Below are positions 24,129-37,380 of a stretch of 64,000 nt of DNA, one piece after another. The first letter of the stretch is position 1. Each line of letters begins with the position of its first letter. This stretch comes from Denitrobaculum tricleocarpae. GTDB taxonomy: Bacteria; Pseudomonadota; Alphaproteobacteria; Kiloniellales; Kiloniellaceae. The stretch lies in NCBI RefSeq assembly GCF_007004665.1, contig NZ_ML660057.1:186001-250000 (forward strand), given 5' to 3'. The position numbers and the translations under genes are program-made. Below the pieces are notes generated by a model. It saw only the letters and a list, made by a program, of their open reading frames with translations, was not told where the DNA came from and ran no database searches.

Positions 24129-25268
24129 CTAGAAGTAACGTTCTTCCGGCAAGATCGAAATGCCGATATTTTCAAGGTAGTAGATAACCTCCACCGCAAT
24201 CCCATCGCGGACGAGTCTCAGGCGTTCCTCGCCACGCTCGTCTTCGGTTTTGGCGATGGCCCCTCGTAACCATTCGCCCGCGCCGGACCAATCGGGGAAA
24301 ACGTTCCTAATCAGCGCAAGAGCGTACGCGCGGTTTCGTTCCCATTCCGGCTTATGATCTTCGCGCAGCTGGTAGCTGTACTGGATCTGAATGAGATCTT
24401 TCGACACGCCGGCGGTCGAAAGAGAGGCGAAGTTGTTTTCCGAGAAAAACTGATCGTAGGGTATGTCCGGCCCCAAATAGAGCTCCCCACGCTGTTCCAA
24501 ACGTTCCGGAAAGGCGTTACCGAGCCCGCCCAGAAGTTGAGACATCGAAAGCCCGAGCGAAGCCGTTGCGGGCTTGTCAGCTGTTGAACCTTCGCTCAGC
24601 GGATCTTGGGCCGCGGGATTACGGGGCACCCCACTCTCAACAAGCACAGGCATGATGCGCATGACTATCCGGCGGTCCGGCGCATCGATACCCGGCTCGT
24701 AGGCGATAATGATACTGTAGCCCTCCACCTCCTTTTCGAAGACTTCTTTGCCGGGATTGGCCTCGAGCTGGAACAACGATCGGCGCGCCCACGCCTTGCC
24801 ACCGCGCCATCCCGGCAATGCATTACGCATAAGTATGCCGGCCCAGGCCCGCTTTTTGCTGCTTTCGCTTTTGAGCCCGGGGCGGAAGCTGTAAAGCAGG
24901 CCTTTCACTGCGTCAGTCGGACCAAGGATATCAAGATAGGTGTCTTCGAAGCTCGATTGGAACCGATCGCCGCTGACTTGATTCCCCGCGGCCAGACTTC
25001 CCTCACCTGGAAGATGAACAGGAAAATGCTTCTCAAGCCTGTGCGTCAGTTGCTTAAAGGTAAATCGCGACCGTCCCAAACCGCTGTTGTCGTCATTTGC
25101 AGCGACTGTCTGAAGCAGTTCCATTTGCCGCCCTCCGTTCTCTGCTGAAAGGAAATTCTGTCCGGGGTATCGCGATACCGACTCAGCCGGCGAAGCAGCA
25201 AAGGCAACAAGCGCCGGGGCGGTAATCCCGGCCATGAAGACCAGTATGCAACACTGAAATTTACTCAT
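24129..25268 (-). CDS. Exported protein of unknown function, tandem paralogue with internal duplication
   Basis: I do not recognise this 379-residue protein. A signal peptide covers about 1-25 (ITAPALVAFAAS). The mature part contains two copies of one module, about 65-205 and 235-379. Each runs from a leucine-rich helix (FKQLTHRLEKHFP; MSQLLGGLGNAFP), through a tyrosine-rich strand and an R-N-x-F/L-P-x-W motif (MRNALPGWRGG; IRNVFPDWSGA), to a final strand (IIIAYEPGIDA; VEVIYYLENIG). The neighbour at 25393-26340 is a clear paralogue without a signal peptide. The two are probably co-transcribed, separated by 124 bp that hold 15-bp tandem repeats. Confidence 0.78.
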   Translation of the reverse strand: MSKFQCCILVFMAGITAPALVAFAASPAESVSRYPGQNFLSAENGGRQMELLQTVAANDDNSGLGRSRFTFKQLTHRLEKHFPVHLPGEGSLAAGNQVSGDRFQSSFEDTYLDILGPTDAVKGLLYSFRPGLKSESSKKRAWAGILMRNALPGWRGGKAWARRSLFQLEANPGKEVFEKEVEGYSIIIAYEPGIDAPDRRIVMRIMPVLVESGVPRNPAAQDPLSEGSTADKPATASLGLSMSQLLGGLGNAFPERLEQRGELYLGPDIPYDQFFSENNFASLSTAGVSKDLIQIQYSYQLREDHKPEWERNRAYALALIRNVFPDWSGAGEWLRGAIAKTEDERGEERLRLVRDGIAVEVIYYLENIGISILPEERYF

Positions 25269-25392: not shown

Positions 25393-26340
25393 CTAGAAGA
25401 GAATCCCCTCGGGGATGACCGAGATGACGATGTCCCCCTGATGATGCACGACCTGCAGGCAGAGGCCGCGGCGCAGGACTTTGGTATCCGCATAACCCTG
25501 CTCAAGCTCCATGCGCACGATCGCGTTGCGCAGCCACTCGGAAGCCTCGGGCCAGTGAGGAAAAGTGTTTCTGACCAGTTCAAGCGCGTAGCGGCGGTTC
25601 TGTTCCAACTCGGATTTGACTTCATCGCTGAGCGGGTAGACGTAAGCGATTTGAGTAACCTCATCCCGCGCACTGAAGACCGAGAGAGACGCCGAGCTGT
25701 TCCGGGGCCGGAACTCTGCGTGCGGGACATGAAACGCTTCTCTCGGCCAGGGCTCCTCCTGCTTCGAGAAGACACCGCGAAGGCCGTTCAGGAGTTCGTC
25801 ACAGGAAACCCCCAGGGAGATCGGAGGCGGTTTCGCAGCCACCGGCGGCATGATCCGCATCACAAGGCGGGGACCCAAAGCATCGCTGCCCGGATCGTAT
25901 TCAACGGTCAGGCTGTGCCCCTCGACCTGTTTCTGAACGCACTCGGCATGCCGGTTCTCCTCGAGCCGCAGCAAGGCGCGCCGTACCCAGGTCTTCCCAC
26001 CCCGCCACCGGGGTAATGCGTTGCGTAAAAGCGTGCCCGCCCAAATCCGTTTTTTCCGGGTTTCGGATTCGGGTCCTGGGTCATAGCTGTAGAGCAGGCC
26101 CGATATCGCGCCCGGTGGCCCTAAAGTCTCCAGGTAGGCGCCGTCAAAGGTTGAGAGCAGGCGATCGCTCCACATCTCCCGCTCGGACCTTAAGCTGCCT
26201 TCTCCCGATAATAGGGTGGGGAAATGATCTTCGAGTTTGTAAAGCAGCTGCTTCAGCGTTAAGGCAGGTCCGGCACCGACGCCACCTCCAATCAGGTTGC
26301 GGCCGCCCCATTGGTGTTCTGCAGATTCAACTTCATTCAC
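25393..26340 (-). CDS. Paralogue of the 24129-25268 protein, without signal peptide
   Basis: A 315-residue protein of unknown function with the same two-module build as its neighbour: LKQLLYKLEDHFP with LLRNALPRWRGGKTW in the first half, and CDELLNGLRGVFS with LVRNTFPHWPEASEW in the second. The GTG start at 26340 has TTGGAG eight bases upstream, and no upstream in-frame start adds a signal peptide. The paralogue downstream is exported while this one appears cytoplasmic. The pair may be a recently duplicated and diverged set. No catalytic motif was found. Confidence 0.75.
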   Translation of the reverse strand: MNEVESAEHQWGGRNLIGGGVGAGPALTLKQLLYKLEDHFPTLLSGEGSLRSEREMWSDRLLSTFDGAYLETLGPPGAISGLLYSYDPGPESETRKKRIWAGTLLRNALPRWRGGKTWVRRALLRLEENRHAECVQKQVEGHSLTVEYDPGSDALGPRLVMRIMPPVAAKPPPISLGVSCDELLNGLRGVFSKQEEPWPREAFHVPHAEFRPRNSSASLSVFSARDEVTQIAYVYPLSDEVKSELEQNRRYALELVRNTFPHWPEASEWLRNAIVRMELEQGYADTKVLRRGLCLQVVHHQGDIVISVIPEGILF

Positions 26341-26991
26341 CTCTTGATCTCCAAGCTTTGTGGAGCCGGAACCGGTTTGGCAACCGCGACGGCGTAGTCC
26401 CGACGACGCCGGGGCAAGGGCCGGTCCATTGGAAGTCGTCCCCCGGGGTTCGCAATCGTCAGGCTTTCTCCCGCCGCAACTGTCACCTGCCGAAACAAAA
26501 AAGATGCCGAAAGGTCAGTTCCACAACGTTTGGTCGGTTCTTGCTTCGATAAAGTTCAAAAATACTCGCTGCCTCAGCAAGACGAGGCAGTGACGGGCGT
26601 TCCCCGTGGGCCTGCCGGTGATGATGTTTTTGAACCGGAAACGGACCAAACCCTACCTACTGAAACAACAAGACTTCGGACAATCTGGGCGCCGGGCGAA
26701 TACTCCCAGTGCTATCCGAATCCAGACCATATCCGAAAACACGTATCTGTCGCCGGGTGCTATCAACCAAGAGCTGTTCGAGCAGTCTCAAGCACCTGAA
26801 AAAACGGGATAACCGGACGCACCAATCACATAATCGCGAGCCGCCGTCCCAAATTTGAACGCTTCACCCGAAGTCGGCGACATACGCTATGAAACCACAC
26901 TGGAGAGCCGGAGACTGGCTCCCAAGAGTAGATAGAATTTGCCCCGACCGGAAACGAACCAGACCGGCACGGAAAAAGTGGGAGACGACCT
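26341..26991. other. 651-bp divergent intergenic region
   Basis: This gap separates the leftward paralogue pair from the rightward anti-sigma gene. One hairpin is visible: CGCTGCCTC (26567-26575) with GAGGCAGTG (26584-26592), one G-U pair. Short open frames in the gap have no ribosome sites and no recognisable products. Promoters in both directions are expected; I could not pick one with confidence. Confidence 0.4.
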
Positions 26992-27675
26992 TTGACCGAC
27001 GCACAGGAACAGCCGAACGATCAAGAGCTCATGAAGCTCCTGCCGTTCTATGTGAACCGCTCGCTTGACGAGGATGAACAGGCCTCCATCGAGGACTACT
27101 TGGCACGCTCCGAGGCCGCACGGATCGAACTCATATACCTCGAGCGGTTGCGCAATGCCGTCAAGCGGCAGTCTCTCGTCAATTCACCGGGCGAGCTTGG
27201 CCTGAAACGCCTGCAGAAAGATATCGCACCTAAAGGTATCGCCGGGAACGGCTCAGGCGCAGCCTGCGATACCCTCACTGGAAAACGGGCCAGCGATCTG
27301 GCTGGGCGAGCTCAACTGAGCGCCCGCGGCGAGGGCGTTGCCTTCTGGTGGCGGCACGTGGCCGTCGCCGCCTGCCTGACACTTGCCGTCTTCGCCGGTC
27401 TCTCGACGCAAGAGTGGCAGGATCGCGACGGCGAGCCGCAGCTTGCCGGCAGCGCCAGCGGCGCCGTGTTACAGGTCACCTTCAAACCCCACGCTACAGA
27501 GGCCGCTATCCGCTCGTTGTTGCTGGAAACCGGCCTCTCGATCAAGGAAGGCCCGTCTTCTCTGGGTATCTATTACTTAGACCTGGACGCGAGCGTGAAT
27601 GGTGCAACACTGAAATCCGCCCTGCAAAAACTGCGCAACCGTGCGGATGTTGTCGATACTGCTGAAATCGACTGA
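26992..27675 (+). CDS. Anti-sigma-factor-like membrane protein with propeptide-like outer domain
   Basis: A 227-residue protein. Residues 10-55 (LMKLLPFYVNRSLDEDEQ) resemble the cytoplasmic sigma-binding domain of zf-HC2 anti-sigma factors, but the zinc-binding His and CxxC are absent (SEAARIE). One transmembrane segment lies at about 120-140. The outer domain (about 150-227; LQVTFKPHATEAAIRSLLLE, then LQKLRNRADVVDTAEID) has the pattern of subtilisin-type propeptide/I9 domains and resembles the pro-region of the subtilase encoded 30 bp downstream. A TTG start at 26992 has GGGAG seven bases upstream. The cognate sigma factor may be the ECF protein at 36784-37380 (inference). Confidence 0.72.
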   Translation: MTDAQEQPNDQELMKLLPFYVNRSLDEDEQASIEDYLARSEAARIELIYLERLRNAVKRQSLVNSPGELGLKRLQKDIAPKGIAGNGSGAACDTLTGKRASDLAGRAQLSARGEGVAFWWRHVAVAACLTLAVFAGLSTQEWQDRDGEPQLAGSASGAVLQVTFKPHATEAAIRSLLLETGLSIKEGPSSLGIYYLDLDASVNGATLKSALQKLRNRADVVDTAEID

Positions 27676-27705
27676 CAGGAAATCGCTTCACACAAATTCG
27701 ACAGA

Positions 27706-29475
27706 ATGAGATTGAGTAGAAAGATGTTGGTAAAGACGTTCATGGCTATGGGCCTTGCGACAAGCCTGCTTGCGCTGTCGCAGTCACCCCTCGAGGCGCA
27801 GAGCCCGACGAGTTCACCAACTGTGCCTGGCACCGCCGGAGAACCGCCACGGCAACCGGGGTCGCCCACTCCAGCATCGGACCCCGCCCCCACTCCGTCC
27901 AAGCCCTCGCCATCGAGGCCATCCACGGCCCCCTCGACGCAGAACCCAAACGGCAGCCAGACGCAACCCAACCCGACCGGCGGCGGCGGCCGCCCCCAGG
28001 GTCAACCTCAGGGTCAGCCGCAGGGCCAGCCTCAAGGACGGCCGGATGGAATCGGGATGCATCGCCTCATCGGGCCGCAGTGTTTTCGTCCCGGCGACCT
28101 GCTGATTATCGAAGGCAGGGGACTGGACGCCGCACGCGGGTTTTCGCTTGAGCTGGAGCTGCCTGGCGATTACCGCCGGCTCGAGATCGAGGTCAACACC
28201 TGGCAGAGTTCCCGGCTCATCGCCCGCCTTGCTGACTCTTCACGCCTGAAGGGCGGACATCGATATGGTCTGGTTCTGATTGATCCCCATGGGCGGCTCG
28301 TCAAAGGTCCGGTACCTGTGGTCGAGTTCGAACTCTGCCAACTGGCGGCGAACCAGACCACGTCCCCGGACCTGGAACCCGCATCGCAGAACCTGAATCA
28401 GGCCGTGCCTGATGAGGTTACTCTTCTCACCGGCGTGCAAGACAGCGATCCGGAAGGAACCGTCACCGCGCTTGGCTATGGCGTCGCCCAGCGCGTAGAG
28501 CTCGCTGCTTTGGGCCAGGAGATTCTGCGTCTCTCCGTGCCGGCCTCCAAAACCCTTACCGAAGCCGTAAGCGAGCTGCAGACAGCCTTGCCCAATGCCA
28601 TCGTGGATGTGAACTCACTTTATGAGATTCAAAACGGGCCGCGGTACTATGCGAAACGTGCGATCAACTGGACCGATGACTTCTTGAGCTGCGCCCAGGG
28701 CGGTCACGGCATCCGGATCGGCCTGATCGATAGCGGCCTCGACCTGAGCCACCCGGCACTTTCTGAACAAAGCATCGTGCAGAAATCCTTCATCGACCGC
28801 GAGCAAAACCCGGAAGGGCTCGATCATGCGACGGGGATCGCGGCCTTACTGATCGGAAGGCCCGGAGTCGGTACGCCGATCGGTCTGCTTCCCGCCGCCC
28901 GGCTTTACGTCGCCGAGGTTTTCGAGCGAGATGACGACGGCCCCTCGAAAGCTTCCAGTTTCCGCCTCGCCATCGCGCTTGACTGGCTGGCGCAGGAAAG
29001 GCTGCGCGTGGTCAACCTTTCATTCGCCGGACCAAGAAACGCGGTCTTCTCAGCCAGTCTTGCCCAGGCCAGCCGGCAAGGTATGGTTCTGGTGGCCGCC
29101 GCCGGCAATTTCGGTGCTGATGCGCCCCCCGCCTTTCCGGCCGCGGAAAAGTCTGTACTCGCAGTCACTGCGGTCGATTCCCGCAACCGGCTATACACCA
29201 AGGCCAACCAGGGCAGTCACATCGAGTTTGCCGCCCCGGGCGTCGACGTCTGGACAGCCAAAACCGGTGGCGGTGGCGCTTATCGCAGCGGAACCTCTTT
29301 TGCCGCGCCCTATGTCGCCGCTATCGTTGCGGCTGAACTTTCGCTTAATCCCCGGCAGTCGAACGGACTGATCGTAGAAGGAATCCGGCGCAGCGCCCGG
29401 GACATCGGCAACGACGGGAGAGACACGAAATTCGGTTGGGGCCTGGTTCGCGCCCCCAAACCCTGCAGGGATTGA
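27706..29475 (+). CDS. Exported S8 subtilisin-like serine protease
   Basis: A 589-residue protein with a signal peptide (about 1-31), a Pro/Gln/Gly-rich linker (about 32-112), an unassigned beta-rich domain (about 115-215) and a propeptide-like region (about 240-315). The S8 catalytic domain starts near residue 330, with the triad D342 (LIDSGLD), H374 (GLDHATGI) and S531 (SGTSFAAPYVAA). All catalytic residues are present, so it should be active in the periplasm or outside. It follows the anti-sigma-like gene by 30 bp. The start is uncertain between 27706 and 27724. Processing of envelope proteins or of the anti-sigma domain is a plausible role. Confidence 0.92.
   Translation: MRLSRKMLVKTFMAMGLATSLLALSQSPLEAQSPTSSPTVPGTAGEPPRQPGSPTPASDPAPTPSKPSPSRPSTAPSTQNPNGSQTQPNPTGGGGRPQGQPQGQPQGQPQGRPDGIGMHRLIGPQCFRPGDLLIIEGRGLDAARGFSLELELPGDYRRLEIEVNTWQSSRLIARLADSSRLKGGHRYGLVLIDPHGRLVKGPVPVVEFELCQLAANQTTSPDLEPASQNLNQAVPDEVTLLTGVQDSDPEGTVTALGYGVAQRVELAALGQEILRLSVPASKTLTEAVSELQTALPNAIVDVNSLYEIQNGPRYYAKRAINWTDDFLSCAQGGHGIRIGLIDSGLDLSHPALSEQSIVQKSFIDREQNPEGLDHATGIAALLIGRPGVGTPIGLLPAARLYVAEVFERDDDGPSKASSFRLAIALDWLAQERLRVVNLSFAGPRNAVFSASLAQASRQGMVLVAAAGNFGADAPPAFPAAEKSVLAVTAVDSRNRLYTKANQGSHIEFAAPGVDVWTAKTGGGGAYRSGTSFAAPYVAAIVAAELSLNPRQSNGLIVEGIRRSARDIGNDGRDTKFGWGLVRAPKPCRD
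27994..28041 (+). repeat. Four 12-bp repeats encoding PQGQ units
   Basis: Four in-frame units encode PQGQ-PQGQ-PQGQ-PQGR in the linker of the subtilase, about residues 97-112. Such slippage-prone repeats may vary in number between strains. Confidence 0.85.
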
Positions 29476-33376: not shown

Positions 33377-35557
33377 TTGGGACTCCCAAACCACTTGTCC
33401 TGCGACGGGTTCAGCCAGGGGCGGAGGCCAGTCTGCACCCCCTACGCCTGCCGCGCAGCGGTCGATGGCGGTGCGATACCTCGCGCATTGTCTCGGGCAA
33501 TCGTGCTTGCATTTGTAGGCTTTATCCTGCTGGGCGCGACAGCCTTTGGGCAGGAAACGGACGATACGCAGAAATTGGACGGCACGGCCCAAGATCAGTG
33601 GACTGCAACACTGGCTCCCGCCAAAAACGGCGACAGCTACGGGCCGCTCGAAGAGATTGTGATCAGGATTCCCGACGATGTCCCTTTCGAGATCCTTCTG
33701 CGTTTGGGGTTGGAAGTCGATGCCATTGACGTAACCCCTCTTCTCGCGTTTGAGGATCAGTCATTCACCTACCGCCCGCAGCAAGCCCTGGAGCCGGGTG
33801 AACACGAATTGCGCATGATTGAACTCACCCCTGACGGCGAGGTCATCGCGCGCGGAAGCTGGGTCCTCTTTGTCTCTGGAGATGCGGGCATTGCCGATGT
33901 CAGCCCGGACGTAGATCCCTTCTCTTTGTCCGCGACGAATTCCGTCGAATTCAGCCAAAGACTCGATGACAAGGGCTTCTCAAACCAACCCGCGCGCGGG
34001 CAGGTCTCCGGTGGCGGGTACGCCGATACCGCCTATAGCGCCGGGCGCTGGTCGGTCACCGGAAATGCAAACTATCTCTTAGAAACCCAAAAGGCTCGCT
34101 CGTCAACCGGACGCAGGTTTGATCTGGGAGAGTACAATTTCAATACCCGCTTCGATGGCGAAGACATCTTTGGCCAGGTTGCGTTAGGCCATCAAAGTCT
34201 GGATATCGACAATTACATCATGTCGAACTACAGCCGCCGCGGACTTTCCGCCAGCCTCGGCAGCGCCGATGAAATGATTGCGGTCACCGGGTTCAGCTTC
34301 CTGCCTGAGAGCACCGTCGGCAGCGAGAACATCACCGGCCTGGGCGACAGTGACAACCGGCTTATGGGTTTTCAGGCCACGGCGCACCCGGTTCCGGCCT
34401 GGGGTCAGGATTTCTCCGTCACAGGTATCTACTACAACGGCCAGGGAAGCAACGGCGGCTTCGGCATTGGCGGAGACACCATCGTGAACGAGGGCGATGG
34501 ATGGGGCGTGACTGTCGAACACTTCCTCTTTGAGCGCAGCCTGCAACTCACCGGACAGTATGCCCGCAGCAACTTCGAACAGGGTGACGTCGTTGTCGGC
34601 GAGGACGAAGCTCAGGGAGATGCCTGGTCGTTCGCTGCGGCCTACACGCCGTTCCAGTCCGAGGAGATAGGGGGTGAGTATCTGAGCGTCACGATCGGCG
34701 CTCAATACGAACGCGTGGATACCTTCTTCAACAGCCTGGCCAACTCATCCCTGGCAGCGGATCGTGAGAGTGTTCTGCTTTACTCCGACATCAATTGGGG
34801 AAGCGTCTCGGCGAACGCGCAGGCACTGTACCAGACGAACAATGTTGACGATCTGGAAGAACTTCCAACCGAACGCCTGTCGAGTTATCAGTTTTCCGCA
34901 AACTACTACCCAACAATAGATCCCCCGGCCGAGGGCGAGACCGATTGGTTTGGCCAGCCCTTCTTGAACCTCAATGCAGGGACGGCAGGCAACAAACGGA
35001 TCAAGACTCCCGAGGCTTATCTGGGAACAGATACGGACAATCAGAATTACTCGGTCACACTGGGTGGAGGATCGAGCTACGGGGCTTGGGGCTGGCAACT
35101 ATCCGAGACCTTCTCAGGCTTCCTCGACCGCACGAATCAGTCTTCGGACTCGACCAACTACATGACTGATGTCTCCGCGAATTGGGCAGTCAGCGATGCC
35201 GTGCAGGTAAACAGCGGCGTTCAGTGGAGCCGGTTCAAGGACAAGATGTTCGATACCCGAACCAATAGCATCAACCTCAATCTGGGCCTCCAGGCCGAGA
35301 TTATTCCCGAAACCCTGAATACGGCGCTGAACTACAATTTGAACCTCCTGACCGGCGACGGCGACACACCTGATAACACCATCGCGAACGGCGAGATCGT
35401 ATGGACGATCCTTCCCCCCACTGAGAACTATGTCGGGGTCGCGCTTGCGTTTCAGGGTCTTGTGGAGAATAGAGATGGCAACAGTGACAAAAGCTTCGAC
35501 GGTACGGATTGGCAGGCTTTCGGACTTTTGCGGATTTCCGCACCCGTTAGCTACTGA
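33377..35557 (+). CDS. Outer-membrane beta-barrel protein
   Basis: A 726-residue exported protein. The TTG start at 33377 has AGGAG six bases upstream. It gives an unusually long charged N-region (about 40 residues) before the signal core AIVLAFVGFILLGATAFG. An Ig-like periplasmic domain covers about 80-170. The remaining about 500 residues alternate polar and aromatic residues in short strands (FNTRFDGEDIFGQVALGH, LSVTIGAQYERVDTF), typical of a barrel, and the chain ends in Tyr as outer-membrane proteins often do. It is the first gene of an operon with a beta-rich exported protein and an ECF sigma factor. Confidence 0.8.
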   Translation: MGLPNHLSCDGFSQGRRPVCTPYACRAAVDGGAIPRALSRAIVLAFVGFILLGATAFGQETDDTQKLDGTAQDQWTATLAPAKNGDSYGPLEEIVIRIPDDVPFEILLRLGLEVDAIDVTPLLAFEDQSFTYRPQQALEPGEHELRMIELTPDGEVIARGSWVLFVSGDAGIADVSPDVDPFSLSATNSVEFSQRLDDKGFSNQPARGQVSGGGYADTAYSAGRWSVTGNANYLLETQKARSSTGRRFDLGEYNFNTRFDGEDIFGQVALGHQSLDIDNYIMSNYSRRGLSASLGSADEMIAVTGFSFLPESTVGSENITGLGDSDNRLMGFQATAHPVPAWGQDFSVTGIYYNGQGSNGGFGIGGDTIVNEGDGWGVTVEHFLFERSLQLTGQYARSNFEQGDVVVGEDEAQGDAWSFAAAYTPFQSEEIGGEYLSVTIGAQYERVDTFFNSLANSSLAADRESVLLYSDINWGSVSANAQALYQTNNVDDLEELPTERLSSYQFSANYYPTIDPPAEGETDWFGQPFLNLNAGTAGNKRIKTPEAYLGTDTDNQNYSVTLGGGSSYGAWGWQLSETFSGFLDRTNQSSDSTNYMTDVSANWAVSDAVQVNSGVQWSRFKDKMFDTRTNSINLNLGLQAEIIPETLNTALNYNLNLLTGDGDTPDNTIANGEIVWTILPPTENYVGVALAFQGLVENRDGNSDKSFDGTDWQAFGLLRISAPVSY

Positions 35558-35569
35558 TGGAGAGATTTG

Positions 35570-36781
35570 ATGGCTATTCAGTCCTGTAAGTCGCTCATCG
35601 CTCGCGGCCTCCTTCTGGCCGCTGCATGCCTCCCGGCGTTTGCACCCCCGGCAAGCGCGGATATTCTCGATGTCACGCCGACACCCACGAATGCCCAGGT
35701 GACAGTTCCTGCGGGGTCAACCGCAATTGCGGTGACCTGGCGCGTGCGCCGCGACGTGCTCTCTGCCTCCCCTACCGTTACCGTCAGATCAACAAGGGGC
35801 GAGTTTCTGATCGGCAGAACGGTTGTCGCCACGAACGCTACGCTCCTCTCAAGACTCAGCGATCCTGCCGGCCAGATATTCCCGATTGAGACCTTCACTG
35901 AAACAGTGCGGGTTCCGGCATCGGTTGCCTTCCAAATGGCCCAGAACCCGGACCTGGTCCCCATCTACCGCCGCAGCTTTGACGATGGCTTCGCCGCTAC
36001 CGCCGGAGCGGTGAGACTGGTTCCGGCAACCAGCACCGCCAGTGAGTTTGACGTCAGGCGCCTGGACCTCTTCTTTGAGGATCGCAGCCGGGTCAAGGTA
36101 CTGCCGGCCGGTGAGCGTCTTGTCGCCTTGGCGGACGTCAATTTTGACGGCGCCGGCATCGCAGAGTTCGAGTGGCAGATTGCCGACCCAAGCTCGACAC
36201 GAGGTGCCCTGGTCTTCCGCAGGCTCCAGGTCTTCCGCCGCAGTCTTGCAGGCCGGGGCCGCGTGACACTGCAAAGCCCGGAGCTGCCGACCTCTGCCCA
36301 GGGCCTCCATATCGTCCGTCTGGTTGCAACCGACCCTCAACTCAGGTTTGCGCCACCGGAACTCAAGTACTTCGTGGTACCGCGCAAGGACGCCACTGCC
36401 GCACCTGCCGGACAGAACATTGTCCTTACCGGCCCGCCCGAGGGAACCCAACTCTCGACGGAGACGGAATTCTCATGGCAGGACACACCGGGTGCCGCGG
36501 TCTACCAGCTTGAGATTTACCCGATACGTCCGGACCGGCCCGTTCCTCCCGGACAGGTTCAACCGATAGGTGGGGCGCTTTTGATCGACCCCGATGAACT
36601 TTCCAGCCGCCCCATTACCGGTATCGTGCTGCCGTCGGACCAAAACAGCACATCACTCAAGGTCTACAGTCTGGCGCATCTCGAAGCCGGCCGTCCCTAT
36701 CTATGGCGTGTCAAAGCCATTTCGGGGAATGGAGCGGTTATCGGCACCTCGCCCGTCAGACGGATCGTTGCGGGGCGCTAA
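35570..36781 (+). CDS. Exported beta-rich (Ig/FN3-like) protein
   Basis: A 403-residue protein with a signal peptide (about 1-31, ending PPASA-DI). Beta-rich domains follow: an N-terminal one (about 33-140) and a C-terminal fibronectin-III-like one (about 275-400; FSWQDTPGAAVYQLEIYP and YLWRVKAISGNG). I find no enzyme motif. The ATG at 35570 has GGAGAG upstream. It starts 12 bp after the barrel gene and ends 2 bp before the sigma gene, so the three are one operon. It probably acts as a periplasmic adaptor or surface component with the barrel. Confidence 0.75.
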   Translation: MAIQSCKSLIARGLLLAAACLPAFAPPASADILDVTPTPTNAQVTVPAGSTAIAVTWRVRRDVLSASPTVTVRSTRGEFLIGRTVVATNATLLSRLSDPAGQIFPIETFTETVRVPASVAFQMAQNPDLVPIYRRSFDDGFAATAGAVRLVPATSTASEFDVRRLDLFFEDRSRVKVLPAGERLVALADVNFDGAGIAEFEWQIADPSSTRGALVFRRLQVFRRSLAGRGRVTLQSPELPTSAQGLHIVRLVATDPQLRFAPPELKYFVVPRKDATAAPAGQNIVLTGPPEGTQLSTETEFSWQDTPGAAVYQLEIYPIRPDRPVPPGQVQPIGGALLIDPDELSSRPITGIVLPSDQNSTSLKVYSLAHLEAGRPYLWRVKAISGNGAVIGTSPVRRIVAGR

Positions 36782-36783
36782 TC

Positions 36784-37380
36784 ATGGCCAGCAGTTCCTA
36801 TTCAACTTTAGACGAGGAGACCGGGGCGTTGGAGCAAGAGAGCTCGACCCTTCTAATGAAGCGCGTTGCCAAGGGAGACGAAAAAGCCTTCGCGGCGCTC
36901 TATTCCGACCTGGAGACCCGCGTCTACCGGTTCATTCTCTCCAAGCTGAATGACCCCTTCGAGGCGGCTGACATCCTGAATGAGACCTTTCTGGAAGTCT
37001 GGAAATCGGCCGAGAAATTCGAGGAGCGTTCGAAACCGAGCACCTGGATCTTCGGCATCGCCTATCACAAAGTCATGGACCATCACCGTAAGAAGAAGCC
37101 CACACAGTTGGACGATCTGGATCAGTGCGATCCCGTCGACGAGTCGGCGGACCAGGCTGCAGCAATGATCGCTCTGGAGGAGAGTGACCATCTGCATCAC
37201 TGCCTGGGAAAACTGAAACCTGCCTTCCGCGCGGTTCTGGAACTCTCTTTCTTTGAGGATCTGCCCTACCGGGAAATCGCCGAGATCATCTCCTGCCCCG
37301 AGGGAACCGTGAAGACCCGGGTCTACCACGCCAAGGAGGCACTGCGCCATTGCCTCGCCCAGCAGATGGGTGACAGCTAA
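36784..37380 (+). CDS. ECF-family RNA polymerase sigma factor
   Basis: A 198-residue group 4 sigma factor. Region 2 is about 30-95 (FILSKLNDPFEAADILNETF, then STWIFGIAYHKVMDHHRKKK). Region 4 is about 135-190 (LSFFEDLPYREIAEIISCPE, then GTVKTRVYHAKEALRHCL). The ATG at 36784 is 2 bp after the previous stop, with a weak GGGGCG ribosome site. It has no anti-sigma gene next to it; the closest candidate is the membrane protein at 26992-27675. It should direct transcription of an envelope- or stress-related regulon, perhaps its own operon. Confidence 0.92.
   Translation: MASSSYSTLDEETGALEQESSTLLMKRVAKGDEKAFAALYSDLETRVYRFILSKLNDPFEAADILNETFLEVWKSAEKFEERSKPSTWIFGIAYHKVMDHHRKKKPTQLDDLDQCDPVDESADQAAAMIALEESDHLHHCLGKLKPAFRAVLELSFFEDLPYREIAEIISCPEGTVKTRVYHAKEALRHCLAQQMGDS

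Follow-up and report, generated by a model that had tools for sequence, protein, structure and literature searches.

A subtilase-prodomain-like outer domain on a membrane anti-sigma protein encoded beside a secreted protease

Many anti-sigma proteins carry outer domains for which we know of no ligand. In the window analysed here, a stretch of 64,000 nucleotides from Denitrobaculum tricleocarpae (contig NZ_ML660057.1, positions 186,001 to 250,000), the gene of a membrane anti-sigma protein, P0001, is followed by the gene of a secreted subtilase of family S8, P0002, and the part of P0001 outside the membrane resembles the prodomain of such a protease. Why should an anti-sigma protein carry this domain next to this gene? 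Profile and fold comparisons indicate that the periplasmic domain of the anti-sigma is a repurposed subtilase prodomain, and in a sample of Pseudomonadota genomes the anti-sigma genes encoding it were found, with one exception among 43, near a gene for a secreted protease of family S8 or C14. We tentatively favour the reading that these genes form a three-part extracytoplasmic signalling cassette, consisting of an extracytoplasmic function (ECF) sigma factor, a prodomain-bearing anti-sigma and a secreted protease, in which the protease would act on the outer domain.

The two genes lie where the original prediction had placed them, as open reading frames at 26992-27675 and 27706-29475, both on the plus strand. 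Their features are as follows.

26992..27675, plus strand: membrane anti-sigma protein P0001, 227 amino acids, TTG start
27019..27222, plus strand: zinc-less class I anti-sigma (ASDI) helical domain, from AlphaFold2 helices, Foldseek matches and conservation in alignment A1
27337..27402, plus strand: single transmembrane span, about residues 116-137, from a hydropathy peak of 1.65 starting at residue 116
27445..27672, plus strand: Fervidolysin_NPro/I9-like outer domain reaching the C-terminus of P0001, from profile comparison and predicted fold
27706..29475, plus strand: secreted S8 subtilase P0002, 589 amino acids, with a signal peptide (by eye), a Pro-rich stretch, a TIG-like region, a prodomain and a catalytic domain
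28396..28632, plus strand: NPro-like prodomain of P0002 itself, from alignment; the profile of cassette prodomains matches NPro prodomains with a probability of 94.7%
28702..29442, plus strand: Peptidase_S8 catalytic domain with Asp, His, oxyanion Asn and Ser all intact

The outer domain of P0001 and the two proteins

Residues 148-227 of P0001 were predicted to fold as beta-alpha-beta-beta-alpha-beta, with a predicted local distance difference test score (pLDDT) of 73.5 from an alignment of two sequences that are 95% identical. When this model was compared with the PDB by Foldseek, no match at E 0.001 or better was obtained (best E 2e-3). The 50 best matches included RRM, ACT and S6 domains together with subtilisin propeptides and the inhibitor POIA1; pro-subtilisin E ranked third, and the propeptides 1scj, 1spb and 3cnq had TM-scores of 0.64-0.69 normalised by target (1scj_B and 3cnq_P, 0.69). 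Because other ferredoxin-like folds match too, the predicted fold alone is unspecific for a propeptide.

In a profile-profile comparison, a profile of 45 outer domains could be aligned over its full length with NPro-like domains recovered through PF22148 (eight S8 prodomains and two stand-alone proteins) at a probability of 95.6% and P of 1.2e-8; the score was 46.3, and none of 60 column shuffles exceeded 14.4. The profile of the nearest relatives alone (A2) reached 85.4% against the same NPro-like domains. The match of the outer domains to the S8 prodomains of the same cassettes was weaker (58.9%, score 26.2, at most 13.6 in 60 shuffles), and it dropped to 6.5-14.2% when the prodomain set was restricted to sequences of the order itself and lay at 16-31% when it was restricted to distant sequences. 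Searches with P0001 alone against Pfam and NCBIfam gave no useful match for the outer domain, and PF22148 was not matched by the window's own domain. Among relatives, PF22148 did match 8 of 18 when E was allowed to reach 10 (best 2.1e-4) and 6 of 38 under a limit of E 1 (best 3.1e-5). When 120 genomes were searched with PF22148, the outer domain of the anti-sigma of genome G068 scored 22.8 bits, over the curated cut-off of 21 bits, and the S8 prodomain of cassette G110 was matched as well. The A2 outer-domain profile found no propeptide among PDB sequences, only one chance match at E 3.1.

The outer domain forms the C-terminal end in 70 of 70 deduplicated sequences, a set that includes a few domains on other membrane proteins and on part of which the profile was trained; the tail past the last strand is 0-15 residues long (median 2.5). 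A processed propeptide has its free end at the same place. From these comparisons we conclude that subtilase prodomains of the Fervidolysin type (I9-like) are remote homologues of the outer domain. An I9-propeptide-like fold had been set beforehand as a test of the original prediction, and both the predicted fold and the profile homology beyond shuffles bore it out. The outer domain occurs, too, on membrane proteins of another kind, each encoded beside a C14 gene (L066:8557-9657, L127:8325-9833 and L128:7767-8927).

The amino-terminal half of P0001 had been described as anti-sigma-like without a zinc site and followed by one transmembrane segment, and this description was upheld. The Hx3Cx2C motif was not found in the P0001 sequence, and NCBIfam anti-sigma models remained far under their cut-off (20.7 of 100 bits); Pfam zf-HC2 was matched by 13 of 18 relatives when E was allowed to reach 10 and by 18 of 38 under a limit of E 1. 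Four helices were predicted at residues 10-21, 27-39, 41-63 and 66-77 (mean pLDDT for residues 11-50, 95-97, from a two-sequence alignment), and the eight best of 21 PDB matches found by Foldseek were sigma/anti-sigma structures, namely those of RskA, RsiW, ChrR, MucA and RslA, although the matches are weak (best E 0.84). An SPGELGLKRLQ motif, conserved in alignment A1, closes the ASDI domain, and by hydropathy there is a single hydrophobic span around residues 116-134. Judged by these features, P0001 is a zinc-less class I anti-sigma with one membrane span, which would hold its sigma factor at the membrane. A search of viral contigs with A1 gave 28 pattern matches and no true relative.

The claim that the adjoining subtilase is intact and has a similar pro-region of its own also held: P0002 matches Pfam Peptidase_S8 at 1.4e-30, Asp, His and Ser are present, and an NPro-like prodomain could be aligned. 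A TIG match was sub-threshold and seen in relatives only. The Asp/His/Ser residues are intact in all 37 complete cassette S8 domains, including that of the window. Cassette S8 proteins retain their own prodomain region (40 aligned sequences, by eye), and for this reason the idea of a split propeptide, in which the anti-sigma would supply the sole prodomain, was rejected. The S8 proteins and caspases that were inspected bear signal peptides, as judged by eye. In a check for lipoprotein anchoring of S8, a crude motif occurred in 14 of 64 rows, several of them implausible; it was clearest by eye in L046 and L050, where an apparent lipobox would give the protease a membrane tether. Apart from the cassettes, stand-alone NPro-like proteins, secreted by eye, are encoded right after S8 genes at L089:1003-1701 and L093:267-854. 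They are possible trans-acting prodomains; no sigma match was found in these short loci.

Linkage of the domain to a protease gene

Conserved linkage of the two genes was the other test set beforehand, and it was seen at both levels that we surveyed. Within the order, homologues of the anti-sigma gene were present in 22 of 61 genomes, and in 21 of these an S8 gene adjoins it; in the exception, G048, the sequence stretch is too short. The wider sample comprised 397 Pseudomonadota genomes, in which the domain-bearing class was assigned by profile. It yielded 43 domain-bearing anti-sigma genes in 41 genomes. Besides the window's own genome, at least 41 of the 396 sampled ones have such an anti-sigma; these genome counts are lower bounds because at most seven candidates were scored per genome. 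The protease neighbour was an S8 subtilase for 37 of the 43 genes, a secreted C14 caspase for five and neither for one (L063). Four of the caspases match Pfam Peptidase_C14 (L064, L065, L076 and L080) and the fifth our own C14 profile (L126); in L065 and L076 the C14 gene lies beyond a transporter-like gene. Several loci were kept out of the 43: L068, which has a C14 neighbour and a domain recognised by eye that the profile does not support; L071, where the match was the S8 protein itself; and L061/L066, L127 and L128, where the domain sits on the other membrane protein beside C14.

As controls we used 26 anti-sigma loci without an outer-domain match, consisting of the 20 best unused matches to the N-terminus only and six from an earlier genome scan; roughly a hundred further N-terminus-only matches, and more, lay outside this set, that of G277 among them. 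When about 8 kb on either side was searched, two control loci had an S8 gene, and one of these two has a C14 gene too, about 6 kb off. An S8 neighbour was thus found for 37 of 43 domain-bearing genes and 2 of 26 controls (p 6e-11) or, counted by genus, in 20 of 26 and 2 of 20 (p 6e-6, genera counted by hand). With either protease counted, the figures were 42 of 43 and 2 of 26 (Fisher p 3e-15). The mean chance of an S8 gene lying so near, estimated from S8 counts in 29 genomes, was about 0.3%.

The sigma gene is contiguous with the anti-sigma gene in 41 of the 43 cases (the others being L069 and L076). Gene order varies and the S8 gene is still linked: it is usually downstream, it lies upstream of the sigma gene in L037 and L048, and in L046 and L050 the anti-sigma gene is on the opposite strand.

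What the protease may do to the domain

In the reading that we favour, the partner protease would recognise the outer domain with its likeness to a prodomain. Once active, or set free by a signal at the envelope, it would cut the anti-sigma outside the membrane. An M50 site-2 protease would then finish the cleavage and release the sigma factor. This supports in part the original prediction, in which the protease may bind or cleave its look-alike domain and thereby control a sigma factor, in departure from the usual site-1/site-2 scheme; the subtilase itself, though, could be the site-1 protease. A protease of the site-2 (M50) type is encoded in the genome, a finding of little weight, as the same is true of 14 of 14 control genomes. 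S8 and C14 enzymes have unrelated folds, so their exchange points to proteolysis as the shared function, as this reading expects; and because the cassettes share a secreted protease, not one fold, cutting fits better than lock-and-key mimicry.

A number of observations weigh against it or against a strict form of the look-alike idea. In five of 43 cases the partner of the domain is a caspase and not S8, which speaks against a strict look-alike lock. Tight mimicry is opposed by a covariation test on 23 cassettes: between the outer domain and the catalytic domain of S8, with sigma distances controlled, the partial r was -0.02 (p 0.6); in the positive control, the S8 prodomain and the catalytic domain covaried at 0.56 (p 0.001). 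L063 has the domain-bearing anti-sigma and no nearby protease, and its genome gave no S8 match at 1e-10. Conversely, in L143 and L151 the same kind of S8 gene stands beside the sigma gene and the outer domain of the anti-sigma is different; because these anti-sigmas are linked to S8 without the domain, a strict need for the look-alike is weakened. The genome of the window itself holds a paralogue of P0001 (L004:8959-9675, contig C20; 54% identical, outer domain kept) with no S8 or sigma match in the roughly 20 kb examined, and the paralogues of G000, G037 (partial) and G038 likewise showed no S8 or sigma gene in the stretches examined. Because S8-linked cassettes served as the seed of the search profile, the sample may lean towards S8. 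The oxyanion Asn is missing in 9 of the 37 complete cassette S8 domains, with Pro, Ala, Asp or Lys in its place (L047, L051, L053, L054, L056, L057, L070, L075 and L135). All nine cassettes fall into a single clade of the sigma tree, together with L063, which has no protease nearby and sits on a long branch. Judging by subtilisin, an enzyme without this Asn would be slow, and the Asn-less cassette enzymes may cut poorly. Finally, linkage alone fits a co-regulated output gene too.

The last point leads to an alternative that we consider rather unlikely, in which the sigma factor would simply drive a secreted protease that works on the envelope or surface, and the outer domain would be an old, prodomain-like ferredoxin fold put to use for some other ligand and untouched by the protease. 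Ferredoxin-like folds bind many ligands, and RRM, ACT and S6 domains are among the matches listed above. A GP signature between strands 2 and 3 was seen by eye in the outer domains of S8 cassettes and of most caspase cassettes and was not seen in S8 prodomains. The lack of covariation between the outer domain and S8, the S8 genes beside sigma in the domain-less L143 and L151, and the conserved promoter-like site before the anti-sigma/S8 pair (described below) are equally in line with an output gene. What such a model leaves unexplained is why a homologue of a protease prodomain should sit on just these anti-sigmas, and why a protease neighbours 42 of 43 of them when 24 of the 26 others have neither S8 nor C14. 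A second alternative is that the outer domain, with an end like that of a processed propeptide, would dock as a product-like inhibitor in the active site of the free mature S8 enzyme, and that this binding, rather than a cut, would alter the anti-sigma and report the level or state of the protease to the sigma factor. A tethered decoy would then capture its cognate subtilase after the prodomain had been shed, and activation would be read as transcription; in some lineages the subtilase would mainly bind, or a caspase would have taken its place. A decoy would be in keeping with the kinship to prodomains, the position at the very end of the protein in 70 of 70 sequences and the persistence of S8 enzymes without the oxyanion Asn beside the domain, as well as with SUB1-ProM, a stand-alone propeptide-like protein that inhibits a Plasmodium subtilase (PMC6993865). 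Against this stand the missing covariation between outer domain and catalytic domain beyond sigma distances, although the protease's own prodomain does covary, and the retention of that prodomain by S8. The domain also pairs with caspases, which to our knowledge have no such prodomain, and on balance we think a decoy of this kind unlikely.

Prodomains act as chaperones, and the outer domain might accordingly be imagined as a folding helper that assists S8 maturation from a separate molecule. In L089 and L093, where the S8 proteins look kexin-like by eye, the stand-alone NPro-like proteins encoded immediately downstream are in keeping with this; cassette S8 proteins, however, retain their own prodomain region, and caspase partners would need no helper, which makes the idea very improbable.

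The favoured reading, cleavage of the anti-sigma by its partner protease, can be set beside known systems. Class I anti-sigmas controlled by regulated intramembrane proteolysis (RseA/DegS/RseP, RsiW/PrsW, RskA) share with P0001 the helical N-terminus, the single span and, in most genomes, an adjoining sigma gene; here, in contrast, the outer domain is a prodomain homologue and a secreted S8 or C14 gene travels along. Besides DegS, other known site-1 proteases of class I anti-sigmas also belong to families different from these two. DegS, the site-1 protease of RseA, is of HtrA type (PMC8103513). The stand-alone inhibitors SUB1-ProM and POIA1 likewise present the prodomain fold on a separate polypeptide; what sets our case apart is the tether to a membrane anti-sigma. 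The outer domain of RsiV is unrelated to the one described here, and the enzyme that RsiV binds, lysozyme, is not a linked protease of its own. RsiV of Bacillus subtilis is likewise an anti-sigma, and its binding of lysozyme controls SigV (PMC4183432). The gene of Plasmodium SUB1-ProM adjoins subtilase genes (PMC6993865). ECF54 factors have subtilase and CHAT proteins in their gene context, with proteolysis proposed and a mainly actinobacterial mechanism (PMC8999054, section on this group); they act without an anti-sigma, and that section names no prodomain-like partner, whereas here an anti-sigma gene is present. Among open full texts, judged by title and the start of the abstract, we found no description of an anti-sigma with a subtilase-prodomain domain or of such a cassette; the group tables of the main ECF classification could list the context.

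In eukaryotes, the site-1 protease SKI-1/S1P is a subtilase that starts the intramembrane proteolysis of a membrane regulator, SREBP. The regulator is a different one, and we know of no prodomain homologue on an S1P substrate. If the protease acts on the domain, the cassette would be a bacterial counterpart of such subtilase-started signalling, with a caspase version alongside. Both the ancestry of the domain and the gene that regularly accompanies it single out a concrete partner, a protease, and the cassette suggests an unstudied route from the state of a protease to gene expression.

The sigma factor and the surrounding genes

The remaining features of the system lie on either side of the pair.

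36784..37380, plus strand: ECF sigma factor (Pfam Sigma70_r2 and r4_2), probably the cognate one; in this genus its gene is separated from the pair
35567..36781, plus strand: secreted fn3-like protein (fn3 at 1.1e-4, 22.8 bits, under the cut-off of 25)
26856..26883, plus strand: TGAACG-N16-CGACAT element ahead of the anti-sigma gene, resembling a promoter and conserved across four species

In 18 related genomes a homologue of the fn3-like gene stands immediately upstream of the sigma gene, and the fn3-like, sigma and anti-sigma genes are contiguous; the S8 gene follows in 17, the stretch of the eighteenth (G048) being too short to tell. In the window and in L003, an uncultured Kiloniellaceae bacterium whose anti-sigma protein is 92% identical to P0001, the ECF sigma gene lies about 9 kb from the anti-sigma/S8 pair. 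A quick tree of 85 sigma factors placed the L003 orthologue of the window sigma within a group of 60 cassette sigmas (SH-aLRT 89), of which 55 are accompanied by S8, four by C14 and one by neither, with the 25 control sigmas outside; several branches of this tree are long, and L068, one of the four C14 rows, has an outer domain without support from the profile. From its place in the tree and its neighbours, the sigma factor at 36784-37380 is probably the cognate of P0001.

The TGAACG-N16-CGACAT element, which we take to resemble an ECF promoter pattern, occurs once in the whole genome under strict matching. With two mismatches allowed, 18 matches were counted in the window against 6.5 expected, a number that no shuffle reached. 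One of these loose matches (35340-35367) is located within the gene that precedes the fn3-like gene, some 200 bases ahead of the latter. In L004, with three mismatches allowed, there were 25 matches against 18, no clear excess, since this number was reached in 16 of 200 shuffles. A promoter common to the pair and the split sigma gene was rejected, given the single strict match; the element is at most a candidate for autoregulation.

Upstream of the fn3-like and sigma genes, 33377-35557 on the plus strand encodes a large protein without a Pfam match that may be an outer-membrane component belonging with these genes. On the other side, divergent from the anti-sigma/S8 pair, two related genes stand in tandem on the minus strand (24129-25268 and 25393-26340). 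Pfam gave no match for either at E up to 1; homologues were found in L003, L005 and L006.

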